A stretch of 64,000 nt of DNA from Candidatus Petromonas tenebris (GTDB lineage: Bacteria > Bacillota > Clostridia > Peptostreptococcales > Caminicellaceae). The stretch is from positions 1 to 64,000 of the forward strand of contig JACCKY010000006.1 of NCBI GenBank assembly GCA_014236755.1. Reading direction: 5' to 3'. Below the pieces are notes generated by a model. The model saw only the letters and a program-made list of their open reading frames with translations, had not been told where the DNA came from and did no database searches. The position numbers and the translations under genes were made by a program. Below are positions 2,686 through 34,276 of the stretch, piece after piece. The stretch's first letter is position 1. Each line of letters starts with the position of its first letter.

Positions 2686-5361
2686 TTATACTGCCTTTTC
2701 AATTGAAACGGCGCAAACTTTGAGCTCTGGTATATTGCTTATAGGGTCTAACTCTGTATTAGTAAGCACATTTGCAGCTCCCTTTGCATAATGGAATGGC
2801 ATGAACACTACTCCATCCTCTATTATATCTGTTACCTTGGCCTTAGTTGTTATTATCCCCCTTCTAGATGAAACTCTAACCTCTTCACCATCTTGAACTC
2901 CTATTTTATCCGCTGTGGCTGGAGATATTTCTATATAGCTTTCTGGCGCCATTTGATTTAATTCTTCCACCCTACCTGTCATGGTTCTTGTATGATAGTG
3001 ATATATTATACGTCCGGTAGTTAAAACAAATGGATATTTTTCATCGGTCTTTTCAGCTGATTCCTCATAGGAAATTGGCATAAACAGCCCTTTACCCCTT
3101 ACAAAAGAACCTTTATGCAGATATTTGGTCCCTGGATGGTCCTTTGTGGGACATGGCCACTGTAAACCTGTCTCTTCTATCCTATCGTAACTTATTCCAC
3201 CGTACTGAGGCGTAACTGAAGCTATTTCGTCCATTATTTCTGATGGGTGATTGTAACCTCGCTTATATCCTAGTCTATCCATTAGTTCAATAAGTATAAG
3301 CCAGTCAGCCTTAGCTTCACCCGGAGCATCTACTGCCTTTCTAACTCTCTGAACTCTTCTTTCGGTATTTGTAAAGGTCCCATCCTTTTCTGCAAAACAT
3401 GCTGCCGGAAGTACTACATCAGCAAGCTCTGCGGTTTCAGTAAAGAATATATCCTGAACCAGCAGAAAATCCAAGTTTTGCAGTGCTTCTCTTATATGGT
3501 TTATATTAGGATCTGATACCATTGGATTTTCGCCCATTATATACATAAATTTGACATATCCCAAAGCTGCTCCATCCATCATCTTTGGTATTGTCAAACC
3601 CGGCTTATCACTTAGTTTAACTCCCCAAGCCCTTTCAAATTTTTCTAGTACTTCAGGCTCGCTTACCTTCTGATACCCGGGAAAATCTCCCGGAAGCGCA
3701 GCCATATCACAGGCTCCCTGAACGTTATTTTGGCCACGTAACGGGTTAACTCCAGCAGATTCTTTTCCTATATTTCCGCACATCATGGCAAGATTGGCTA
3801 TTGCCATAACATGATGGGTTCCGGAGCTGTGCTGTGTAATACCCATAGCATAAAATATACCTGCTCTATCGGCTTTAGCATATAGTCTTGCTGCTTTTCT
3901 TATATCTTCGGAATTCACACCGCAAATTTCAGCGGCCCTTTCTACTGAAAAATCTCTTATTACCTCAACTGCTTCTTCGAAGTTTTCAGTTTTACTTTCA
4001 ATATAGTCCTTGTTGTAAAGTTCTTCCTTTAATATTACATTCATCATACCATTTAACAAAGCTACATTAGTGCCGGGCTTTATCTGAAGAAATACTTCTG
4101 CATCCTTTGCAAGATCTATTTTTCTTGGATCTGCTACTATCAATTTAGCTCCTTTTCTTAGCGCTTGCCTCATTTGAGAACCAATAACAGGATGATTCTC
4201 CGTAGTATTTGATCCTGTTACGAAAATGACATCTGCGTTTAAAATTTCACCGATACTGTTTGTCATGGCTCCACTTCCAAGGGTAGTTGCCAGACCGGCA
4301 ACCGTAGAGGAATGGCAGAGCCTAGCACAATGGTCTATATTATTGGTTCCTATAACAGCTCTAAATAGTTTTTGCATAAGGTAATTTTCTTCATTTGTAC
4401 ATCGTGCCGACGACAATCCAGCAAAAGCATCAGAACCATACTTTTCCTTGATTTCATTTATCTTATTCGTTATAATCTCATAGGCTTCATCCCATGTAGC
4501 AGACTTAAACTTTCCATCTTTTTTAATTAAAGGAGTTTTTAATCTATCTGGATGATTTATAAATTTGTATCCAAACTTCCCTTTTACACATAGCAGCCCA
4601 TTGTTAGATGGTCCAAAGGCAGGGTCTACTCCTACCACTTTATTCTCTTTTACTCTTAAGTCCATTTGACAGCCCACTCCACAATATGAGCATGTTGTTC
4701 TCACTCTTTTTGTTGTGGATAGTCTCAAATTTTCTTTAGATTTAGGCATCAATGCCCCCACTGGACAAACTGATACGCAATTCCCGCAAGATACACAATC
4801 TGAATGTTCCATCCCCTTTTCAAAGGGATGGGTTACATGGGTATAAAAACCTCTATCACTGAAGGATATGGCACTGGTACATTGAAGTTCTTCGCAAACT
4901 TTTACACATTTCCCGCAGCTTATGCATTTATTTTGGTCGTTATAATAAAATGGGTTACTATAATCTATTGGATAGTTTTTAGTCTCTCCCTTGTATTTTA
5001 CTTCACCTATACCCAGTTCTTCGCAATAATCCTGTAGTTTACATTCCCCTGATTTTTCACAGGTCAAACATTCCATTGGATGGTTTGAAATCATCAAGTT
5101 TAATATTTCTTTTCTAGCTTCCCTGACCCTCTTAGTATTTGTAAAGACCTCCATGCCATCTGCAACCTTTGTTGAACATGATGTGGCCAGATTTTTCATC
5201 CCTTTTATTTCTACAATACACAATCTACAGGCTGCATGAGGCTCAAGCCTATCATCATGACAAAGTGTTGGAATATCTATTCCATTATCTTTACAGGCTT
5301 TAAGAACGGTGTAGTTCTTTGGAACTTGAACCTTGTTGCCATTGATAATAATACTAACCAT
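2686..5361 (-). CDS. fdhA: formate dehydrogenase alpha subunit, Cys-type, with NuoG/HydA-like N-terminus
   Basis: Molybdenum or tungsten bis-MGD enzyme oxidising formate or reducing CO2 in the cytoplasm. Domains in order: [2Fe-2S] ferredoxin (about 1-80, CHDDRLEPHAACRLC), His-Cys3 [4Fe-4S] segment (HPMECLTCEKSGECKLQ), two ferredoxin clusters (CISCGKCVKVC, CVSCGNCVSVC, about 145-200), the molybdopterin Fe4S4 motif CSYCGVGC (about 225), the catalytic domain, and the C-terminal molydopterin-binding domain. The active-site position reads CARLCHSSTVAGL: Cys349, encoded by TGC (4315-4317), stands where many clostridial enzymes have selenocysteine. The N-terminal module matches that of HydA and NuoG and of NAD-dependent FdsA-type enzymes, which dock on NuoF/NuoE-like partners. 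It follows hydF on the same strand but has its own upstream gap and terminators on both sides. Confidence 0.95.
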   Translation of the reverse strand: MVSIIINGNKVQVPKNYTVLKACKDNGIDIPTLCHDDRLEPHAACRLCIVEIKGMKNLATSCSTKVADGMEVFTNTKRVREARKEILNLMISNHPMECLTCEKSGECKLQDYCEELGIGEVKYKGETKNYPIDYSNPFYYNDQNKCISCGKCVKVCEELQCTSAISFSDRGFYTHVTHPFEKGMEHSDCVSCGNCVSVCPVGALMPKSKENLRLSTTKRVRTTCSYCGVGCQMDLRVKENKVVGVDPAFGPSNNGLLCVKGKFGYKFINHPDRLKTPLIKKDGKFKSATWDEAYEIITNKINEIKEKYGSDAFAGLSSARCTNEENYLMQKLFRAVIGTNNIDHCARLCHSSTVAGLATTLGSGAMTNSIGEILNADVIFVTGSNTTENHPVIGSQMRQALRKGAKLIVADPRKIDLAKDAEVFLQIKPGTNVALLNGMMNVILKEELYNKDYIESKTENFEEAVEVIRDFSVERAAEICGVNSEDIRKAARLYAKADRAGIFYAMGITQHSSGTHHVMAIANLAMMCGNIGKESAGVNPLRGQNNVQGACDMAALPGDFPGYQKVSEPEVLEKFERAWGVKLSDKPGLTIPKMMDGAALGYVKFMYIMGENPMVSDPNINHIREALQNLDFLLVQDIFFTETAELADVVLPAACFAEKDGTFTNTERRVQRVRKAVDAPGEAKADWLILIELMDRLGYKRGYNHPSEIMDEIASVTPQYGGISYDRIEETGLQWPCPTKDHPGTKYLHKGSFVRGKGLFMPISYEESAEKTDEKYPFVLTTGRIIYHYHTRTMTGRVEELNQMAPESYIEISPATADKIGVQDGEEVRVSSRRGIITTKAKVTDIIEDGVVFMPFHYAKGAANVLTNTELDPISNIPELKVCAVSIEKAV

Positions 5362-5475
5362 GAATTACTCCCCCCCTTTTGTTTATATAACATATAATAT
5401 CATTCCAGTTTGATAACCTTTTAACAATCTCATTATAACATTTTTACTCCCAAATGTATAATAAATTATAGAGCT

Positions 5476-5519
5476 TCAATCAAAAAATCTTGACCTTAAG
5501 GTCAAGATTTTTTGATTGA
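5476..5519 (-). terminator. long perfect palindrome, terminator of hydF
   Basis: 44-bp perfect inverted repeat centred at 5497/5498. Its arms carry a T6 or A6 run, so it can act as an intrinsic terminator in either direction. It lies 13 bp after the hydF stop and separates it from fdhA. Confidence 0.8.
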
Positions 5520-5532
5520 TAGTCACAACATT

Positions 5533-6762
5533 TTAGTTATACAATATTTTTTTTATATGTGGAAATGGTTCTAATGCTCTTTCCAATATCCCCGTTACAT
5601 ACCCTATCAATACCCCATAGTTAACTATTGGCATTCCATTTTCTTTAGCCTGCTCTATTCTGAATTCCATCTCCTTTGGATTAAGCATGCAGCCTCCACA
5701 ATGGACAATCAAGTCAAATTCTTTCATTTCTTCAGGTTCAGGATAGGCAGTGCCAGAAGTCCACTGGAAATTCAGCTTTCCTCCAACCATATTTTCTAGC
5801 CATCTAGGTATTTTATCTCTGCCAATATCTCCTTCTTGTCTATGATGGGTGCATCCTTCACAAATTAGAACTTTGTCTCCCGGCTTAAGCTCTTTTATCC
5901 TAGCTACTCCTCCTACTAGTGCCTTTAAATCACCTTTGTATCTTGCAAATAAGATTGAAAAGGATGTTAATGGAATATCCTCTGGAGTGTCTTTATTTAC
6001 CCTTTCAAAAGCCTGTGAATCTGTTACAACAATACGAGGTTTCTTTACTAAACCTTTTAATGTCTCATTTAACTCTGTTTCCCTAGTTACAACAGCAATA
6101 GCTCCATGGTCAATTACATCTCTTATGGTTTGTTGTTGAGGTAAAATCATTCTACCCTTTGGAGCCGCCTTATCTATAGGCGTTACCAGTACTACAAAAT
6201 CATTGGGTTCGATCAAGTCTCCAATAATCACCTTTTCATGTTTTTTTAGATTGGCTTCTTTTATTATGGTTTCCTTTAATTTCTCTATACCTTCTTTAGT
6301 CGATGCACTTACCTTAACAAAGGGAATGTTATATTCTTCACTCCATTTTTTCATCAATTCATCGTCTATATCATAAATATCGACCTTATTTATAACTCCC
6401 ACTAGAGGAATTTTCTTTTCCTTTACTCTGGAGATAACATCCTTATCAAATTCTGTTATGCCATTTTCTCCATTTAAAACTATTATAGCTAGTTCAGTTT
6501 TATTTAGTACCTGATAGGTTTTCTTTATTCTGAGTTCTCCCAGTTCTCCTTCATCATCTATTCCTGCTGTATCTATTATTACTACAGGTCCTATGGGTAG
6601 AATCTCCATTGCTTTGTATACAGGATCTGTAGTAGTTCCTGCTACATTAGATACCAGAGCTATGTCCTGATTTGTAATTGCATTGATAAGACTTGATTTT
6701 CCAGCATTTCTCCTTCCAAAAATAGCTATATGAAGTCTGTTACTTCTCGGTGTATCCTGCAT
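5533..6762 (-). CDS. hydF: [FeFe]-hydrogenase maturation GTPase HydF
   Basis: Scaffold that carries the 2Fe subcluster precursor and delivers it to apo-HydA. Seen: a Ras-like GTPase domain with P-loop GRRNAGKSS (about residues 16-24), switch residues TTTDP, DTAG and NKVD. After a dimerisation region comes the C-terminal cluster domain with CTHH and, about 50 residues on, HCGGC, the conserved Cys-His-Cys ligands. About 409 aa is normal. ATG 6762 is preferred over an ATG five codons upstream, because the in-frame AGGAGGAGAAGG directly before it is a strong ribosome site. It follows hydE by 44 bp in the maturation operon. Confidence 0.96.
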   Translation of the reverse strand: MQDTPRSNRLHIAIFGRRNAGKSSLINAITNQDIALVSNVAGTTTDPVYKAMEILPIGPVVIIDTAGIDDEGELGELRIKKTYQVLNKTELAIIVLNGENGITEFDKDVISRVKEKKIPLVGVINKVDIYDIDDELMKKWSEEYNIPFVKVSASTKEGIEKLKETIIKEANLKKHEKVIIGDLIEPNDFVVLVTPIDKAAPKGRMILPQQQTIRDVIDHGAIAVVTRETELNETLKGLVKKPRIVVTDSQAFERVNKDTPEDIPLTSFSILFARYKGDLKALVGGVARIKELKPGDKVLICEGCTHHRQEGDIGRDKIPRWLENMVGGKLNFQWTSGTAYPEPEEMKEFDLIVHCGGCMLNPKEMEFRIEQAKENGMPIVNYGVLIGYVTGILERALEPFPHIKKILYN

Positions 6763-6806
6763 CCTTCTCCTCCTCATCCTTTGTATTAAATATATAAAAA
6801 ATCTTA

Positions 6807-8123
6807 CTAAGTTTCCTTTGTCATTTTATCTATTTTCAAATAGGGCGGCATTTTCCTCCCTGCCTCTTTAACTGCCTTAAAAGCCGACTTTAAATCCACC
6901 ATATTTTTATCACTATATATCTGGTAATTATATCGATATTTAGCGGGTGTATTTATAAGCATAATAGTATTAGCCCCAGCCTTCAGAGCCTTTGTCTGTC
7001 CATCAGGGTCTAAAGAGGCTAGTGCTGTAGTTGCCGGAATAAACACCCTCTTGCACACTATTCTAGTAACAGCAACTGCCTTTAAAGTCATCTCTATGCT
7101 GCCCTTTGGATATCCTTCAAAGGGGGTTCCTTTAGCTGGTACAAAAGGACCGATGCCTATCATATTAATTCCCATATCTTTAAAAAATAATATGTCTCTG
7201 GCAATATCCTCTACTCTTTGTCCTGGCAATCCTATGATACTTCCGGAACCGTTAAGATATCCCAGTTGCTTTAGCCACTTGGAACATTGGACTCTATGAT
7301 CAAAATCATCATCGGGATGTATAAACTTAAACAGCTTTCTATTTGTAGTTTCAATCTTTAGGAGAAAGTTATTTGCTCCCAGTTTTCTATATAATTCATA
7401 TTCTTCTCTAGGCCTTTCCCCTATGCTGAGGGTTATATTCATACTGGTTTCTTTTTTTACTCTTCTTATTAAAGATGAAATCTTTTCAGGAGTCCACCTC
7501 AAATCCTCTCCCGATTGGAGAATTACGGTCTTTATTCCTATTTCATGAAGTTGGTGAACAACCTCCATTATTTCATCTTCCGTCATTCTATATCTGGCAA
7601 GATCACTTAAACTCCTTCTTATACCACAGTATTTGCAGTCCTTTCTACAGTAGTTAGAAAATTCAACCGCACCTCTGATATCTACTACATCACCAACTAT
7701 TTCCCTTCTCATCCTGTCGGCAGCATGGTAAAGAGCTTCCTTTTCTACCCTTCTTTCAGTCTTTAGTAAAAGAACTATATCCTCAAAACCTAGCTCTTCT
7801 CCATTTTCTATTTTCTTTAGAACCTTTATAAATTCTTCTGATATTACAGAGTCCATTAGTTTTGTAACTAGACCTGCCAGCTTTTGAGTCTTGTCAGGAT
7901 ATATTCCCTCTATAGAAATGTTATTTTGCCTTAAAATCTTCTCCGCTCTATTTCTATCCTCAATTTTAACCTTTATGGCCGTTGCACAGACCGTTCCATA
8001 CTCTGCTGGAGCAGGAACGAGGGAAGTTTCCACTCCTTCATCCTTTAAAATCTTATCTCCTCTAAGCATGTGGCTAGTAGATCCTGCCATGATTAGGTAA
8101 TGTTTAATATTGTCTTTTGTCAT
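6807..8123 (-). CDS. hydE: [FeFe]-hydrogenase radical SAM maturase HydE with N-terminal DUF3343-like domain
   Basis: Radical SAM enzyme of H-cluster assembly, acting downstream of HydG in making the dithiomethylamine-bridged 2Fe unit. The radical SAM motif CRKDCKYC gives Cys159, Cys163 and Cys166. The sequence then follows HydE (VILQSGEDLRW, NITLSIGERP, GSGSIIGLPGQ, IGIGPFVPAKGTPF). HydE is usually about 350 aa; this one is about 438. The extra first 80 residues (YLIMAGSTSHMLRGDKILKD, VPAPAEYGTVCA) resemble DUF3343, a putative Se/S carrier-like fold, and keep one Cys at residue 46. I chose ATG 8123 over 8135 because GGGGG lies seven bases before it and nothing suitable precedes the earlier ATG. 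Confidence 0.93.
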   Translation of the reverse strand: MTKDNIKHYLIMAGSTSHMLRGDKILKDEGVETSLVPAPAEYGTVCATAIKVKIEDRNRAEKILRQNNISIEGIYPDKTQKLAGLVTKLMDSVISEEFIKVLKKIENGEELGFEDIVLLLKTERRVEKEALYHAADRMRREIVGDVVDIRGAVEFSNYCRKDCKYCGIRRSLSDLARYRMTEDEIMEVVHQLHEIGIKTVILQSGEDLRWTPEKISSLIRRVKKETSMNITLSIGERPREEYELYRKLGANNFLLKIETTNRKLFKFIHPDDDFDHRVQCSKWLKQLGYLNGSGSIIGLPGQRVEDIARDILFFKDMGINMIGIGPFVPAKGTPFEGYPKGSIEMTLKAVAVTRIVCKRVFIPATTALASLDPDGQTKALKAGANTIMLINTPAKYRYNYQIYSDKNMVDLKSAFKAVKEAGRKMPPYLKIDKMTKET

Positions 8124-8219
8124 AATTACCCCCATCTAATAATTATGTGTTTACTGCATTTTTGACTTTTTCTGTATCGGGTTTTTGATATGGCTTAAGA
8201 GCAATATTTATTTTTTCTG

Positions 8220-8240
8220 TTACCCATAACCTGTAACCTG
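8220..8240. repeat. short heptanucleotide array between hydG and hydE
   Basis: Three successive 7-mers TTACCCA, TAACCTG and TAACCTG sit in the 120-bp gap between hydE and hydG. They match the unit type of the longer arrays elsewhere in the window. Nothing else is recognisable in the gap. Confidence 0.5.
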
Positions 8241-8243
8241 ATT

Positions 8244-9617
8244 CTAAAAATATAGATCTCTTTCTCCTTTTTCAATTCTTTCCAGTCTTTGTATAGTTTC
8301 GTCTTTTATCTTTCTATCGACTATCTTATTTAATTCTCTTTCAATTAGTTTTTCGCCTTCATCTTTAGTCTGGGTGGAGGCATGGTCTAGAAGATATTCC
8401 TTAAAGGTAAGTATTGCATTGGGATGACAAAATTCATGGATATGGGCATCCTTTGCCAGCTCCATAAAGGCTTCACCGGTTCTCTTTGCTCGATAACATG
8501 CTGTACAGAAGCTTGGTAGATGTCCTTGGTTTACGGCAACTCTTATGACCTCATCTACGCTTCTTTCATCACTTGTCTCAAATTGTGTAGCTTCACTGTC
8601 ATCTTCTTCATATCCACCAGGATTTGTTTTTGAACCGGCAGAAATTTGAGATACTCCAAGTTCTAATAGCTCATCTCTTAGTTTAGCACTTTCTCTGGTA
8701 GACAATATGATTCCTGTATATGGAACTGCAATCCTATATACAGCAACGATTTTCTTCAAATCATGATCTGATACAGGATAAGGTACTTCTGAAAGGGCTG
8801 AATTAAAGGCTGGTCTAAGTCTCGGTATAGAAATAGTATGGGGCCCTACATGATATTTATTATCTAAGTAATCTGAGTGAATCAATGTAGCCAGTACATC
8901 AAACTTATAATCATATAATCCCAGTAAAACGCCTATACCCAGATCATCAATACCTGCTTCAAAGGCCCTATCCAGTGCAGTAAGTCTCCAATCATAATCT
9001 GATTTTGAACCGCTTGGATGCATTTTTTTATAGGTTTCTCTATGATAGGTTTCCTGGAATATCTGATAGGTTCCTATTCCTACTTTTTTTAGTTTTTTGA
9101 AGTCTTCTACAGTCATCGGAGCGGAATTTACATTGATTCTTCTTATGTCAACATTCTCATATACTGCTTTTACCGAATTCACTATATGTTCTATATCTGT
9201 CTTTCTCTCATCCTCTCCACATACCATCAGTATTCTCTTATGTCCCTGTGCTTCAATAGCCTTTGCTTCCTTTACAACCTCGTCTGCCGACAATGTTCTT
9301 CTGTGAAGCTCTTTATTAGCCGATCTAAATCCACAGTAGAGGCAGTTATTGGTGCATTCATTGCTAGTGTACAGAGGGGCAAAAACTACTATCCTATTCC
9401 CATAGATCTTCTCTTTTATATATCTTGCTGCATCAAACATCTTTTCTAAAAGTTCATCATCTTCGATCTGTAGCAAAGCCGCAGCCTCTTCAAAGGTTAT
9501 ACCAAAGCAATCCCTTGATTTTTCAATTATATTCAAAATTTCATTCTTTGAATATTTCTTTCCCTTTTCTAACAATTCCATAATTTCTTTTTCATTAATG
9601 ATTTTAGTAGTATCCAC
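8244..9617 (-). CDS. hydG: [FeFe]-hydrogenase radical SAM maturase HydG
   Basis: Radical SAM tyrosine lyase that makes the CO and CN ligands and the Fe synthon of the H-cluster. Seen: the N-terminal radical SAM cluster CTNNCLYC (Cys88, Cys92, Cys95), a TIM-barrel core of the ThiH type, and the C-terminal auxiliary-cluster domain with FCTACYRAKRTGEAFM, whose CxxC Cys residues hold the second Fe-S cluster. 457 aa is close to the family length. The GTG start follows GGGAGGAATG. It lies in the order TM1266 - hydG - hydE - hydF, so maturation genes are co-transcribed. Confidence 0.96.
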   Translation of the reverse strand: MDTTKIINEKEIMELLEKGKKYSKNEILNIIEKSRDCFGITFEEAAALLQIEDDELLEKMFDAARYIKEKIYGNRIVVFAPLYTSNECTNNCLYCGFRSANKELHRRTLSADEVVKEAKAIEAQGHKRILMVCGEDERKTDIEHIVNSVKAVYENVDIRRINVNSAPMTVEDFKKLKKVGIGTYQIFQETYHRETYKKMHPSGSKSDYDWRLTALDRAFEAGIDDLGIGVLLGLYDYKFDVLATLIHSDYLDNKYHVGPHTISIPRLRPAFNSALSEVPYPVSDHDLKKIVAVYRIAVPYTGIILSTRESAKLRDELLELGVSQISAGSKTNPGGYEEDDSEATQFETSDERSVDEVIRVAVNQGHLPSFCTACYRAKRTGEAFMELAKDAHIHEFCHPNAILTFKEYLLDHASTQTKDEGEKLIERELNKIVDRKIKDETIQRLERIEKGERDLYF

Positions 9618-9668: not shown

Positions 9669-9914
9669 TTACTTCTTTGTTAATGCACTCTTAACAGTTA
9701 CTCCTTTGAGTCTCCCTAACCTTCCTGTCATAGCTCCAATTTTATCTGTTGTGCCGTCTACTATTATCGAGATAACATTTACATTTTTTTCTTTATAAGG
9801 AACTCCCATTCTTCCAATTATTAAATCTGAATAACTTGAAAGTATTGAATTAACAGTTTGGACATTCTCTATGTCTTCTACTAATATAGCTACAACTCCA
9901 ATTCTCTTATCCAT
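9669..9914 (-). CDS. TM1266-family iron-only hydrogenase system regulator
   Basis: Small ACT-like protein (81 aa) of the TM1266 family, commonly found beside hydrogenase maturation genes and assumed to act as a regulator. Seen: RIGVVAILVEDIENVQTVNS at the start, IIGRMGVPYKEKNVNVIS, and the closing GRLGRLKGVTVKSAL, all typical of the family. No DNA-binding helix is visible, so how it regulates is not clear from the sequence. AGGAGG precedes the ATG. It is the first gene of the maturation operon and lies just after a leader terminator. Confidence 0.9.
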   Translation of the reverse strand: MDKRIGVVAILVEDIENVQTVNSILSSYSDLIIGRMGVPYKEKNVNVISIIVDGTTDKIGAMTGRLGRLKGVTVKSALTKK

Positions 9915-10365: not shown

Positions 10366-11187
10366 TTATTTTTCTGAAGCTACAGCAGCTTCCTCTACTA
10401 CACGACTGCGTTCATTAGATTCAATAGGATATATTTCTCTTTTATGATAATGAGTATGCAGTAGTTCATGAGACTTATGACTGTTTGGTTTACCTAAAAA
10501 CTCAGCATAGATCCTCTTAATCGTTGGGTTCTTATGGGATTTTCTTATAGTCTTTAATTCATCTTCTTCATATAATGCCTTAGCTCTTTCAGCTCTTACA
10601 TCTATATTCATTCTAGTTTTAGCATCAACATGTGGTTGTCCACCACCATTTACACAACCACCACTACATCCCATAATTTCTATAAAGTGATAGTCAGCTT
10701 CGCCGGCTTTAACTTTATCTAAAAGCTTAGCTGCATTGGCAGTACCATGGGCTACTGCAACCTTTATCGTCTTATCTCCAATAGTTATAGCTGCTTCTTT
10801 AATTCCTTCTTCAACACCTCTAACATCTTTATATTCGATATCTTCCAAGTCTTCTCCTGTTAATACGTCAGCAACAGTTCTAAGGGCAGCTTCCATAACT
10901 CCACCTGTAGCTCCGAATATAACACCTGCTCCTGTATATTCACCAAATACTTGGTCAAATCCTTCATCAGGCAGCTTCATAAAGTCTAATCTGGCCTGCT
11001 TAATCATCTTACCTAACTCTCTAGTAGTAAGAACTGCATCCACATCTCTTAGGTCATTAACTTTCAGTTCCTCTCTTGCTGATTCTGTCTTTTTGGAAGT
11101 ACATGGCATTATTGAAACCACAAATATATTTTTAGGATCGATATCGTTCATTTCTGCATAGTATGACTTAAGCACTGCACCCATCAT
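10366..11187 (-). CDS. hydA: HydA C-terminal part (H-cluster domain), separated by a frameshifting deletion
   Basis: Second half of the catalytic [FeFe]-hydrogenase subunit. It begins inside the H-cluster domain at the family segment KSPHQMMGAVLKSYYAE, the first ATG in frame being at 11187. It contains motif L2 (MPCTSKK) and motif L3 (EIMGCSGGCVNGGGQP), which carry three of the four Cys ligands of the cubane, and a normal HydA C-terminus (SHKNPTIKRIYAEFLGKP, LLHTHYHKR). There is no ribosome site before 11187, so on its own it is probably not translated, except by coupling to the overlapping upstream frame. See the 11168-12115 entry: together they make about 588 aa of a protein that should be about 19 residues longer. 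Confidence 0.9.
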   Translation of the reverse strand: MMGAVLKSYYAEMNDIDPKNIFVVSIMPCTSKKTESAREELKVNDLRDVDAVLTTRELGKMIKQARLDFMKLPDEGFDQVFGEYTGAGVIFGATGGVMEAALRTVADVLTGEDLEDIEYKDVRGVEEGIKEAAITIGDKTIKVAVAHGTANAAKLLDKVKAGEADYHFIEIMGCSGGCVNGGGQPHVDAKTRMNIDVRAERAKALYEEDELKTIRKSHKNPTIKRIYAEFLGKPNSHKSHELLHTHYHKREIYPIESNERSRVVEEAAVASEK

Positions 11188-12115
11188 TTGATGAGGTGAT
11201 TTGCCAACCTGGTGAACATGAAGTAATCATTGGTAGCTTTTCACCATTTTGAATTCTATCTAATAGCTCATGACCTTCTTCCATAATAGTAAGGTCTGCT
11301 CCAAAGTTAGTATCGAATACTTTATCAAACCCTAATCTTCTTAATGCTGCAACCATCTTACCTGTTACTCTAGTTCCTATTGGGAGTCCAAACTCTTCAC
11401 CCAAAGCCGCTCTAACTGCTGGTGCAGTTTGAACTAAAACGTGAGTTTTTGGATCTTCTATGGCATCCCAAACTCTTTCTATATCTGATTTTTCTCTTAG
11501 AGCAGCTACTGGACATACGTTTATACATTGTCCACAGTAGATACATGGAGCTTCATCCATACTCTTGTTAAAGGCTGGAGCCACTTCAGTTGTAAATCCT
11601 CTATTAGTAAAGTCAAGAATACCGATATTTTGAACCTTTTTACAAGTATTTACACATCTTCCGCACAGAATACACTTGCTTGAGTCTCTTACTATAGAAT
11701 GAGATATATCATCTACAGTACCTACTCTCTTTTCTCCGTTAAAGCTTACTTCTTTTATACCTAGTTCTTCAGATAATGTTTGCAATTCGCAATTTCTATT
11801 TCTAAAGCATGTTAAACATTCTCTATTATGATTAGCAAGAATAAGCTCTACAGTAGTTTTTACTGCATCTCTAACTTTTTTTGTATTAGTCTTTACTACC
11901 ATACCATCCCTTACGGGCAGTACACATGAAGCTTGAAGGCTTCTTGCTCCTTCTACCTCTACCAAACATACCCTACAAGCTCCTACTTCATTTATTTCCT
12001 TTAGATAACAAAGTGTTGGTATATCTATTCCTGCTTCTTTAGCAGCTTCAAGTACCGTATAATTACTTGGTACGCTTACTTCTAAACCATTTATGGTTAA
12101 AGTTACCTTCTCCAT
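11168..12115 (-). CDS. hydA: HydA N-terminal part (Fe-S relay and motif L1), truncated by a deletion
   Basis: First half of the catalytic subunit of the NADH/ferredoxin-linked [FeFe] hydrogenase. Seen: [2Fe-2S] domain (CYLKEINEVGACRVC), His-Cys3 cluster segment (HNRECLTCFRNRNCELQ), two [4Fe-4S] motifs (CILCGRCVNTC, CIYCGQCINVC), then the start of the H-cluster domain up to motif L1, TSCSPGW. Straight after the Trp the DNA continues with the sequence that should encode KSPHQMMGA but in another frame, giving ten foreign residues and a stop at 11168. About 19 codons plus two bases are missing. The second Cys of the usual TSCCPxW is Ser, a variant I believe occurs in multimeric enzymes but could not verify. 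Confidence 0.92.
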   Translation of the reverse strand: MEKVTLTINGLEVSVPSNYTVLEAAKEAGIDIPTLCYLKEINEVGACRVCLVEVEGARSLQASCVLPVRDGMVVKTNTKKVRDAVKTTVELILANHNRECLTCFRNRNCELQTLSEELGIKEVSFNGEKRVGTVDDISHSIVRDSSKCILCGRCVNTCKKVQNIGILDFTNRGFTTEVAPAFNKSMDEAPCIYCGQCINVCPVAALREKSDIERVWDAIEDPKTHVLVQTAPAVRAALGEEFGLPIGTRVTGKMVAALRRLGFDKVFDTNFGADLTIMEEGHELLDRIQNGEKLPMITSCSPGWQITSSNDGCSA

Positions 12116-32347: not shown

Positions 32348-33688
32348 ATGGTGATGAATAAAAATAGTTTATCAAGTTATAGAGACTACGTACTTGGTAT
32401 TGAAAGTAAAGTTCCTCTAGTAGATGGAAAACTTACAACTGCCATAAATTTTGATAATGCTGCAACTACTCCACCTTTTAAAACAGTTATGGATGCAGTT
32501 AATGTATTTTCTCCCTGGTATTCCTCTATCCACCGGGGCACAGGATATAAGTCAAAGTACTCTTCAAGACTTTATGAAGAAGCTAGGGAAATTGTAACTG
32601 AATTTGTTAATGCAGATTTCAATAAAGATACAGTAATTTTTGTTAAAAACTCTACAGAAGCCCTTAACAAGCTTTCCTATAGACTTGATAAAAATAATAA
32701 TAGGAATATGGTTTTATCCAGTTATATGGAGCATCATTCCAATGATTTGCCCTGGCGAGATAAATTTCGTGTAGATTACATTGATATCGATAAATATGGG
32801 CGTCTATCTCTGGAGGACCTGAAGTCCAAGCTTGAAAAATATAAGGATTCAGTCAGGCTGGTAACAATAGTAGGAACTTCCAATGTAACCGGATATAAAA
32901 ATTCCATACACGAAATTGCAAAGCTTTCACATATGTATGGTGCAGAGATCATGGTAGACGGAGCCCAATTAGTTCCCCATTGTCCCGTAGATATGAAGCC
33001 TAAAGATTCACAAAAGCATATCGACTACTTAGTTTTTTCAGCCCATAAAATGTATGCTCCCTTTGGTATCGGCGTATTGATAGGCCCTAAATCAGTCTTT
33101 GATAAAGGTAATCCGGATTATTCTGGCGGAGGAACTATTGACATAGTGACTCATAACTATATAAAATGGGCTGAACCTCCTCATAAGGAAGAAGCGGGAT
33201 CGCCAAACATTATAGGCGTTATAGCTTTAACAGCTGCAATAGAAACTTTGACTATGTTTGGAATGGAAAATATTTTTATTCATGAAAAAGGTTTAACTGA
33301 TTATACAATCAACAGGCTAAAACAAATTCCGGACATTATAATATATGGCGATACGGAAAACTATCATGACCGGCTGGGGATAATTACTTTTAATATTAAG
33401 GGTATCCACCATGAGATACTAGCCAATATTCTCTCCTATGAGGCCGGCATAGCAGTACGAAATGGATGTTTTTGTGCTCATCCCTATATCCATAGACTTT
33501 TAAATGTAAAACAGGATGAAATAGAAAAACGCATTAAAAATCCGGAGCTACCGCACCCCGGAATGGTTAGAATAAGTTTTGGACTATACAATACCTATAA
33601 AGAAATAGATATCTTTATAGAATGTCTCAAAACAATAATTAAAAACAAAAAATATTATATACGAAAATATGACTTTTTTTCTAAATAA
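32348..33688 (+). CDS. cysteine-desulfurase-like aminotransferase class V enzyme
   Basis: PLP enzyme of the class V aminotransferase fold. Seen: N-terminal INFDNAATTPPFKTVMDAV, HRGTGYKSKYSSRLYEEAR, the pocket IMVDGAQLVPH, the PLP lysine in FSAHKMYAPFGIGVL (about residue 231), and a Cys loop NGCFCAHPYIHRLL that could hold the persulfide Cys of a desulfurase. 446 aa is longer than SufS/IscS (about 400). It has no SufBCD or IscU neighbour. A DsrE-family sulfur-transfer-like gene follows, which makes a sulfur role plausible. Start: ATG 32348, or ATG 32354 two codons on; the ribosome site (AGGTGAAGG) does not decide. Confidence 0.82.
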   Translation: MVMNKNSLSSYRDYVLGIESKVPLVDGKLTTAINFDNAATTPPFKTVMDAVNVFSPWYSSIHRGTGYKSKYSSRLYEEAREIVTEFVNADFNKDTVIFVKNSTEALNKLSYRLDKNNNRNMVLSSYMEHHSNDLPWRDKFRVDYIDIDKYGRLSLEDLKSKLEKYKDSVRLVTIVGTSNVTGYKNSIHEIAKLSHMYGAEIMVDGAQLVPHCPVDMKPKDSQKHIDYLVFSAHKMYAPFGIGVLIGPKSVFDKGNPDYSGGGTIDIVTHNYIKWAEPPHKEEAGSPNIIGVIALTAAIETLTMFGMENIFIHEKGLTDYTINRLKQIPDIIIYGDTENYHDRLGIITFNIKGIHHEILANILSYEAGIAVRNGCFCAHPYIHRLLNVKQDEIEKRIKNPELPHPGMVRISFGLYNTYKEIDIFIECLKTIIKNKKYYIRKYDFFSK

Positions 33689-33700
33689 TATATTTTGCAG

Positions 33701-33722
33701 TCTTCCTTCATGGAAGATTTTT
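33701..33722 (+). terminator. intrinsic terminator after the desulfurase-like gene
   Basis: TCTTCC-TTCAT-GGAAGA followed by TTTTTACTTTT, 13 bp after the stop. Confidence 0.75.
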
Positions 33723-33799
33723 ACTTTTATTCCTATTATAAAACTTTAACTTTTAGGGAAAAATAAGGTCTAGTGAGACTTAAGGAGGCTTGGAATAGT

Positions 33800-34276
33800 T
33801 TGAAGAAAAAGTTGAATTTAATAATGTTTAGTGGAGATTATGATAAGGCTCTAGCAGCATTGATTCTAGCAAATTCAGGTAAGGAACTGGATATGGATGT
33901 CAGTATGTTTTTTGCATTTTGGGGATTATTTTTACTCAGAAGCCCTGAGCATATAACTTCAGAAAGTAAAACATCCTATGAAAAAATATTTGGAGCTATG
34001 ACTCCAAAAGGTCCAGAAGATCTTCCCCTGTCAAAAATGAATTTTAGTGGTTTAGGTAAAAGAATGCTTCTGGATATGATGGAAGACGACCATGCCCCTC
34101 CACTCGAAGCCTTTTTAAAGGGGGCAAGAAAAAAAGGAGTGAAGTTTTACGGATGCAAACTATCTATGGAGGTCATGGGATTTAAGGAAGAAGAATTAAT
34201 TCCTGAGCTAGAAGTTGTAGATGCAAAGGAATATTTAAAGAACGCTATAGAGTCTGATATTCAACTGTTTATCTAA
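33800..34276 (+). CDS. DsrE/DsrF-like (sulfur-relay family) protein
   Basis: About 158 aa with the DsrE-like fold: LNLIMFSGDYDKALAALILAN at the start, VSMFFAFWGLFLLRSPE, and FYGCKLSMEVMGFKEEELIP near the end, with the single conserved Cys in the last segment. Related proteins (DsrE/F/H-like, often called peroxiredoxin-family) take part in sulfur transfer or membrane-associated redox tasks; the exact role is unknown. I chose TTG 33800 over GTG 33773, since AAGGAGG (33782-33788) lies inside the longer frame and 11 bp before the TTG. A heptad element begins directly at its stop codon. Confidence 0.8.
   Translation: MKKKLNLIMFSGDYDKALAALILANSGKELDMDVSMFFAFWGLFLLRSPEHITSESKTSYEKIFGAMTPKGPEDLPLSKMNFSGLGKRMLLDMMEDDHAPPLEAFLKGARKKGVKFYGCKLSMEVMGFKEEELIPELEVVDAKEYLKNAIESDIQLFI

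Follow-up and report, generated by a model that had tools for sequence, protein, structure and literature searches.

The fused gene and its operon

The window, the whole 64,000-nucleotide stretch of Candidatus Petromonas tenebris contig JACCKY010000006.1 analysed here, carries on its reverse strand a gene (6807-8123; 438 amino acids, ATG at 8123) in which a DUF3343 domain is fused to the N-terminus of the maturase HydE. The original prediction held that the first 80 or so residues resemble DUF3343, and the HMM search bears this out: residues 9-76 (7896-8099, reverse strand) match PF11823 (DUF3343, now named Se_S_carrier) with an E-value of 5.5e-19 and 67.9 bits against a cut-off of 25, covering 68 of 69 model positions (2-69). 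The region after the domain is HydE, as had been proposed. Residues 102-414 (6882-7820, reverse strand) match TIGR03956, the HydE equivalog, at 302.5 bits (cut-off 254.6), and this radical-SAM barrel contains the CX3CX2C motif (C159, C163, C166). The match runs from profile position 2 to 316 of 340, so the last 24 or so positions are absent; the C-terminal CxxC of the auxiliary cluster is absent as well. C46 (codon at 7986-7988, reverse strand) is the sole cysteine within the first 80 residues. A typical DUF3343 is a small stand-alone protein of 80-100 amino acids; because it is here part of a 438 amino acid protein, we refer to a DUF3343 domain rather than to a DUF3343 protein.

Could the extension result from a misplaced start codon? 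A second in-frame ATG lies upstream, at 8135, but a GGGGG just 5' of the ATG at 8123 makes the latter the likelier start. The domain is in frame from either ATG, and it is present in 12/12 of the relatives first compared (60-83% identical). We therefore reject a start-codon artefact.

The gene belongs to an operon-like run on the reverse strand in the order TM1266 - hydG - hydE - hydF, behind an [FeFe]-hydrogenase large-subunit gene. The TM1266-family gene (9669-9914; PF21699 / TIGR03959) precedes hydG (8244-9617; TIGR03955, 544.9 bits); the fused hydE comes immediately after hydG and is itself immediately followed by hydF (5533-6777; TIGR03918, 590.2 bits). The fused HydE is the only HydE over the TIGR03956 cut-off in this genome, and it co-occurs with HydG, HydF and an [FeFe]-hydrogenase gene. 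In the assembly the hydrogenase gene (10366-12115, reverse strand) is broken into two frames; compared with an intact relative (L044), it lacks a short stretch after CSPGW and a frameshift follows, reflecting either real loss or assembly error. Besides the fusion, the genome encodes two free-standing PF11823 proteins, and the gene for one of them adjoins a putative yedF, named from its sequence.

Conservation and predicted structure of the domain

When residues 5-84 of 62 distinct fused proteins are aligned, only P37, P39 and C46 are invariant, with G43 present in 61/62. The original prediction had placed C46 at the conserved cysteine position of the family; the homologue count that it called for gives 62 distinct fused HydEs, and C46 is common to all of them. 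Mean pairwise identity is 40% in the DUF3343 domain versus 61% in the HydE part, and in a domain that changes so fast the invariant cysteine stands out. The radical-SAM CX3CX2C is likewise kept in 62/62. The conserved residues lie in the loop that connects strands 2 and 3, which has the pattern P-x-P-x-x-x-G-x-x-C and is closed by C46.

The AlphaFold2 model of the domain has a predicted beta-alpha-beta-beta-alpha-beta arrangement (mean pLDDT 85.7), in which the loop at 38-47, before the strand at 48-53, holds the P-x-P and C46 and is the less certain part. For the full-length model (pLDDT 92.7, pTM 0.90), residues 96-429 overlay the HydE structure 3CIW over 332 residues at 1.6 Å (Z 47.8). The domain itself matches no PDB chain by sequence, nor any structure in Foldseek at E <= 0.001. 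In VIA-align all of its matches have Z < 8, the best (7.6) being EscJ over 59 residues at 2.4 Å, and the other weak matches include the metal chaperones TM0320 and Atx1 as well as ACT and PII regulators. From predicted-fold matches as weak as these, we name neither a relative nor a function of the domain.

Two known systems provide a comparison. The Thermotoga maritima HydE (3CIW and related structures; TIGR03956) has the same radical-SAM barrel, CX3CX2C motif and hydG/hydF neighbors; the fused HydE differs in its added DUF3343 domain, in lacking the C-terminal CxxC and in a profile match that ends at 316/340. The absence of the CxxC is general in the fused proteins: none of 61 has it within the last 60 residues, compared with 26/63 unfused HydEs (this count excludes L133, in which the frame enters a run of N). 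The C-terminal auxiliary-cluster cysteines of HydE are reported not to be essential (PMC6212873, partial text), and we do not count them as a defining feature of HydE. The free-standing DUF3343 proteins (PF11823, Se_S_carrier; Lin et al. 2015, PMC5322559, partial text) share the PF11823 match, the cysteine position and the link to genes of the desulfurase/Sec-lyase family, and the family is predicted to carry selenium or sulfur. Among 38 free DUF3343s that we compared, all have a cysteine in the conserved place, followed by glycine (a CG pair) in 25/38; in the fused domains the residue after the cysteine is A, T, S or N in 61/62, and a glycine stands three residues before it in 61/62.

Distribution and origin of the fusion

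How widespread is the fusion? In 41 of 60 genomes of relatives, a HydE scores over the TIGR03956 cut-off, and 12 of these, besides the genome of the window, encode a DUF3343-HydE. Of 398 genomes drawn evenly from the phylum, 220 give a match to the fused profile at E <= 1e-60, and among the matches listed, which run down to about 308 bits, at least 20 genomes, that of the window included, match it over its full length. A scan of a collection of named genomes with two HydE peptide patterns recovers 70 HydE loci, of which 53 are fused, all with record titles from Bacillota. Fused members occur among Alkaliphilus, Tepidibacter, Geosporobacter, Thermoanaerobacterium, Acetivibrio alkalicellulosi, Pseudobacteroides, Caloranaerobacter, Carboxydocella, Natroniella and Halonatronum. 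The HydEs of Omnitrophota, Planctomycetota, Elusimicrobiota and Neomarinimicrobiota in that scan are unfused, and it recovers no fusion beyond Bacillota, where divergent fusions could escape the two patterns.

A tree of the HydE part only (125 rows, 62 of them fused) requires two label changes: the fused proteins form one clade with a single intruder, L090 (Thermoanaerobacterium saccharolyticum NTOU1), in which a broken frame separates the domain, still present, from the HydE part. The original prediction was right that standard HydE lacks the domain. Because the fused HydEs form one clade in this sequence tree, a single fusion event within Bacillota would be the simplest reading. Two proteins without the domain (L104 and L124) branch beside the fused clade; L104 keeps linker residues, so that either an early loss or a state from before the fusion is possible.

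Several loci in this set show peculiarities of their own. The frame break of L090 lies inside the DUF3343 part (6001-6300 of that locus) with the HydE part intact downstream, and may be a sequencing error or a natural loss. Thermoanaerobacterium-type genomes (L136-L138, L219) have two HydEs each: the gene for the unfused one adjoins hydG on the opposite strand, whereas that for the fused one is beside parB and a cysteine-desulfurase gene. In L039, hydF is split into two overlapping frames (7262-8490). L053 encodes at 4802-5848 a divergent HydE-like protein that scores 143.9 bits to TIGR03956, under the cut-off; its genome (G022) has two other HydEs, and L053 is possibly a paralog with another job.

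Association with hydG and with a cysteine desulfurase

Among the genes tested, hydG directly precedes and hydF directly follows the fused hydE in 47/62 distinct fused loci, several of the remaining loci ending within the stretch examined. In Thermoanaerobacterium the fused hydE does not adjoin hydG. A second partner is a cysteine desulfurase of the TIGR01977 type. With the desulfurase gene of G144 as query, which neighbors the fused hydE in this Thermoanaerobacterium-type genome and whose relatives are 50-58% identical outside the genus and 90% and more inside it, we find the desulfurase downstream on the same strand in 17/52 fused loci whose downstream DNA extends for at least 4.5 kb (23/70 fused loci overall). 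The corresponding number for unfused loci is 1/27, the one being the frame-broken fused L090, and 0/26 without it. In the phylum sample, 15 of 20 fused genomes among the matches listed have the desulfurase no more than approximately 3 kb from the fused hydE; G149, counted among these 15, is cut by a contig end. By comparison, 64 of 80 genomes with an unfused HydE have the desulfurase gene, and in 0/80 does it lie within 10 kb of hydE; this control covers 80 of 90 listed genomes, and fragmented assemblies can hide neighbors. Fisher tests of the association give p-values of 4e-4 and 6e-14, with kinship ignored. On the tree the adjacency undergoes only 4 changes among 50 fused rows, so the adjacency counts are far from independent.

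A gene over the TIGR01977 cut-off is present in 33/35 genomes checked, including that of the window, and the [R/C]xGxxC cysteine motif is kept in 56/56 related desulfurases examined. The window's own lineage lacks the adjacency to the fused hydE; its desulfurase gene is on another contig.

The desulfurase and the hyd genes are found together in two settings. In the first, they lie beside parA-parB (L082, L091, L101, L107, L133, L141, L143). In the second, they form a relocated operon, TM1266-hydG-[hydE]-(aspA-like)-hydF-desulfurase (L079, L083, L086, L105). The Acetivibrionaceae-like genomes have the hyd operon outside the parA-parB block and the desulfurase is still its last member. A block of parA, parB, the desulfurase and DUF4446, which we name presumptively, in part from mutual similarity, occurs with a nearby free DUF3343 and without hydG in L204, L206 and L207. 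Since the block exists without hydG, it may be an old one that the hyd genes joined later, and the linkage may be partly a matter of inherited position.

A gene read by eye from the sequence as aspA-like lies inside the hyd operon in four of these loci (L083, L086, L101, L105), where it either follows the fused hydE ahead of hydF, as in L083, L086 and L105, or separates hydG from hydE. Aspartate ammonia-lyase has been shown to supply ammonia for the assembly of the H-cluster (PMC11736057, partial text).

Where are the closest relatives of the fused domain? The best free-standing match to its profile in 396 genomes of the phylum (E = 2.7e-18) is in G091. In this genome and in G133, a free DUF3343 gene directly follows hydG (TIGR03955, 633 and 622 bits) and directly precedes a gene of the TIGR01977 cysteine-desulfurase family, while their HydE is unfused and located elsewhere, between TM1266 and hydF. 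These free DUF3343s resemble the fused domains and share their adjacency to hydG, differing in that they are separate genes; their family and class are represented by these two genomes only. In a tree of 62 fused and 38 free domains (100 in all; the free ones were chosen for their similarity either to the fused profile or to PF11823), the two group with the fused domains with a bootstrap of 99 and an SH-aLRT of 98, on only 81 columns, and the other 36 free domains fall outside. Such a distribution is of the Rosetta-stone type, with one kind of domain occurring both as a part of HydE and as the product of a separate gene beside hydG. A search of the gathered loci with the fused-domain profile finds no separate DUF3343 gene near HydE in the unfused loci; the only non-HydE matches in it are the two free genes of the window genome, which were included deliberately, and the frame-broken L090.

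The desulfurase also accompanies hydG on its own. In five genomes with an unfused HydE (G174, G208, G285, G399, G439) the desulfurase gene adjoins hydG, and in the one genus formed by G174, G208 and G285 the two are side by side while the fused hydE is gone and an unfused hydE is elsewhere. As the pair persists without a fused hydE, the desulfurase may serve hydG as much as it serves the fused domain.

A possible sulfur relay

The original prediction had offered a sulfur- or selenium-handling role or, alternatively, a sensor. The sulfur half of the handling role gains support from the desulfurase as operon neighbor in many lineages and from the closest free-standing relatives, which sit between hydG and a gene of the desulfurase family; free DUF3343 genes had been linked earlier to genes of the Sec-lyase family (PMC5322559, partial text). 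It is tempting to hypothesize that the domain derives from a free-standing DUF3343 that worked with a TIGR01977-type desulfurase beside hydG. The desulfurase would load sulfane sulfur onto Cys46 as a persulfide, and the small ferredoxin-like domain, tethered to HydE, would pass it to the HydG-to-HydE step of [2Fe] assembly, where the acceptor could be the HydE cavity or the auxiliary iron site of HydG, which would be re-sulfided. We favor such a cysteine-based carrier as a tentative reading, with a probability of roughly 0.4; the persulfide on C46, the direction of transfer and the acceptor are what we infer, in contrast to the fusion, its single clade, the invariant cysteine with its loop, the links to hydG and the desulfurase and the absence of a strict selenium link, which are observed.

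Several observations weigh against the relay. Standard HydE works without a DUF3343 domain. The neighbors of the fused clade, L104 and L124, do without it too, and the lineage of the window has no desulfurase adjacency. The accepted pathway draws the bridging sulfurs from the complex-B cysteine (a reference cited in PMC13339137, partial text), so a separate sulfur donor is not needed; this speaks against a relay that ends in the [2Fe] core, and repair of the HydG auxiliary site is left as an acceptor. It would be a bolder claim that, in this anaerobic branch of Bacillota, the TIGR01977 desulfurase loads Cys46 for delivery to HydE or HydG, that part of the inorganic sulfur of [2Fe] assembly therefore arrives by a persulfide relay and not only from the complex-B cysteine, and that the desulfurase is an unrecognized maturation factor; we consider this doubtful. 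That HydG has an auxiliary iron site in need of renewal is in part described in PMC11736057 (partial text).

The main rival to the relay is that the domain docks on HydG. In that case, the C46 thiolate would briefly ligate the Fe(CO)2(CN) synthon (complex-B) on its way to the HydE cavity, or would seal the route, and the desulfurase link would be an inherited position. The hydG - hydE - hydF order of most fused loci fits this proposal, as does the placement of the nearest free relatives directly after hydG in G091 and G133, and a direct transfer of the synthon from HydG to HydE is reported (PMC11736057, partial text, citing another paper). The C-terminal differences of the fused clade, with its missing CxxC and its shortened profile match, can also be read in this way: a third, closed entrance to the HydE cavity lies under the C-terminal loop according to a review (PMC6212873, section 5, partial text), and it is a guess that the added domain occupies this site instead. 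However, docking leaves unexplained why the desulfurase is kept in relocated operons that have no parA-parB block. Free-standing DUF3343s share the cysteine yet have no synthon, and the separation of the fused hydE from hydG in Thermoanaerobacterium does not fit either. We hold docking to be unlikely, and the relay remains our preferred reading.

Alternatively, C46 might sense the sulfur or oxidant state and tune HydE, or the domain might be mainly a structural clamp of the ACT/ferredoxin-like kind. The appearance of ACT and PII regulators alongside metal chaperones among the weak fold matches speaks for such a role, and so does the fact that HydE functions elsewhere without the domain; but matches that weak may reflect only a common arrangement, and two prolines and a cysteine invariant throughout the fused set point to more than a scaffold. 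This seems to us improbable. Delivery of selenium to HydE for a naturally Se-substituted H-cluster, which the predicted selenium carriage by DUF3343 (PMC5322559, partial text) and the somewhat commoner presence of SelD over cut-off with the fusion (26/32 fused versus 23/40 unfused genomes) might suggest, is very improbable given that SelD is also found in those unfused genomes and is missing over cut-off from four fused ones listed as 100% complete (G144, G179, G288 and G423, Thermoanaerobacterium-type, of one genus). These four genomes also mean that selenium is not required for the fusion, so that the selenium half of the original prediction is rejected as a requirement.

HydE is a well studied maturase, and the protein on which its sulfur chemistry was established has no such domain. 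HydE and DUF3343 are each known; in the literature searched, from which subscription papers mostly fall outside, we found no description of their fusion or of the desulfurase link, both of which are apparently undescribed. With a carrier-like domain inside HydE and a desulfurase as an old operon partner, the question of a dedicated carrier versus free movement of sulfur or synthon becomes testable. The natural split into lineages where the domain is fused, free beside hydG or lost offers ready-made comparison sets, and the fused HydE is found in named, cultured organisms, among them species of Thermoanaerobacterium, Acetivibrio and Alkaliphilus.

The window contains one more locus related to sulfur. 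Approximately 24 kb from hydE, on the forward strand (32348-34276), an aminotransferase class V / cysteine-desulfurase-like gene is followed by a DsrE-like (DrsE_2) gene, and the two are possibly a second sulfur-transfer pair.
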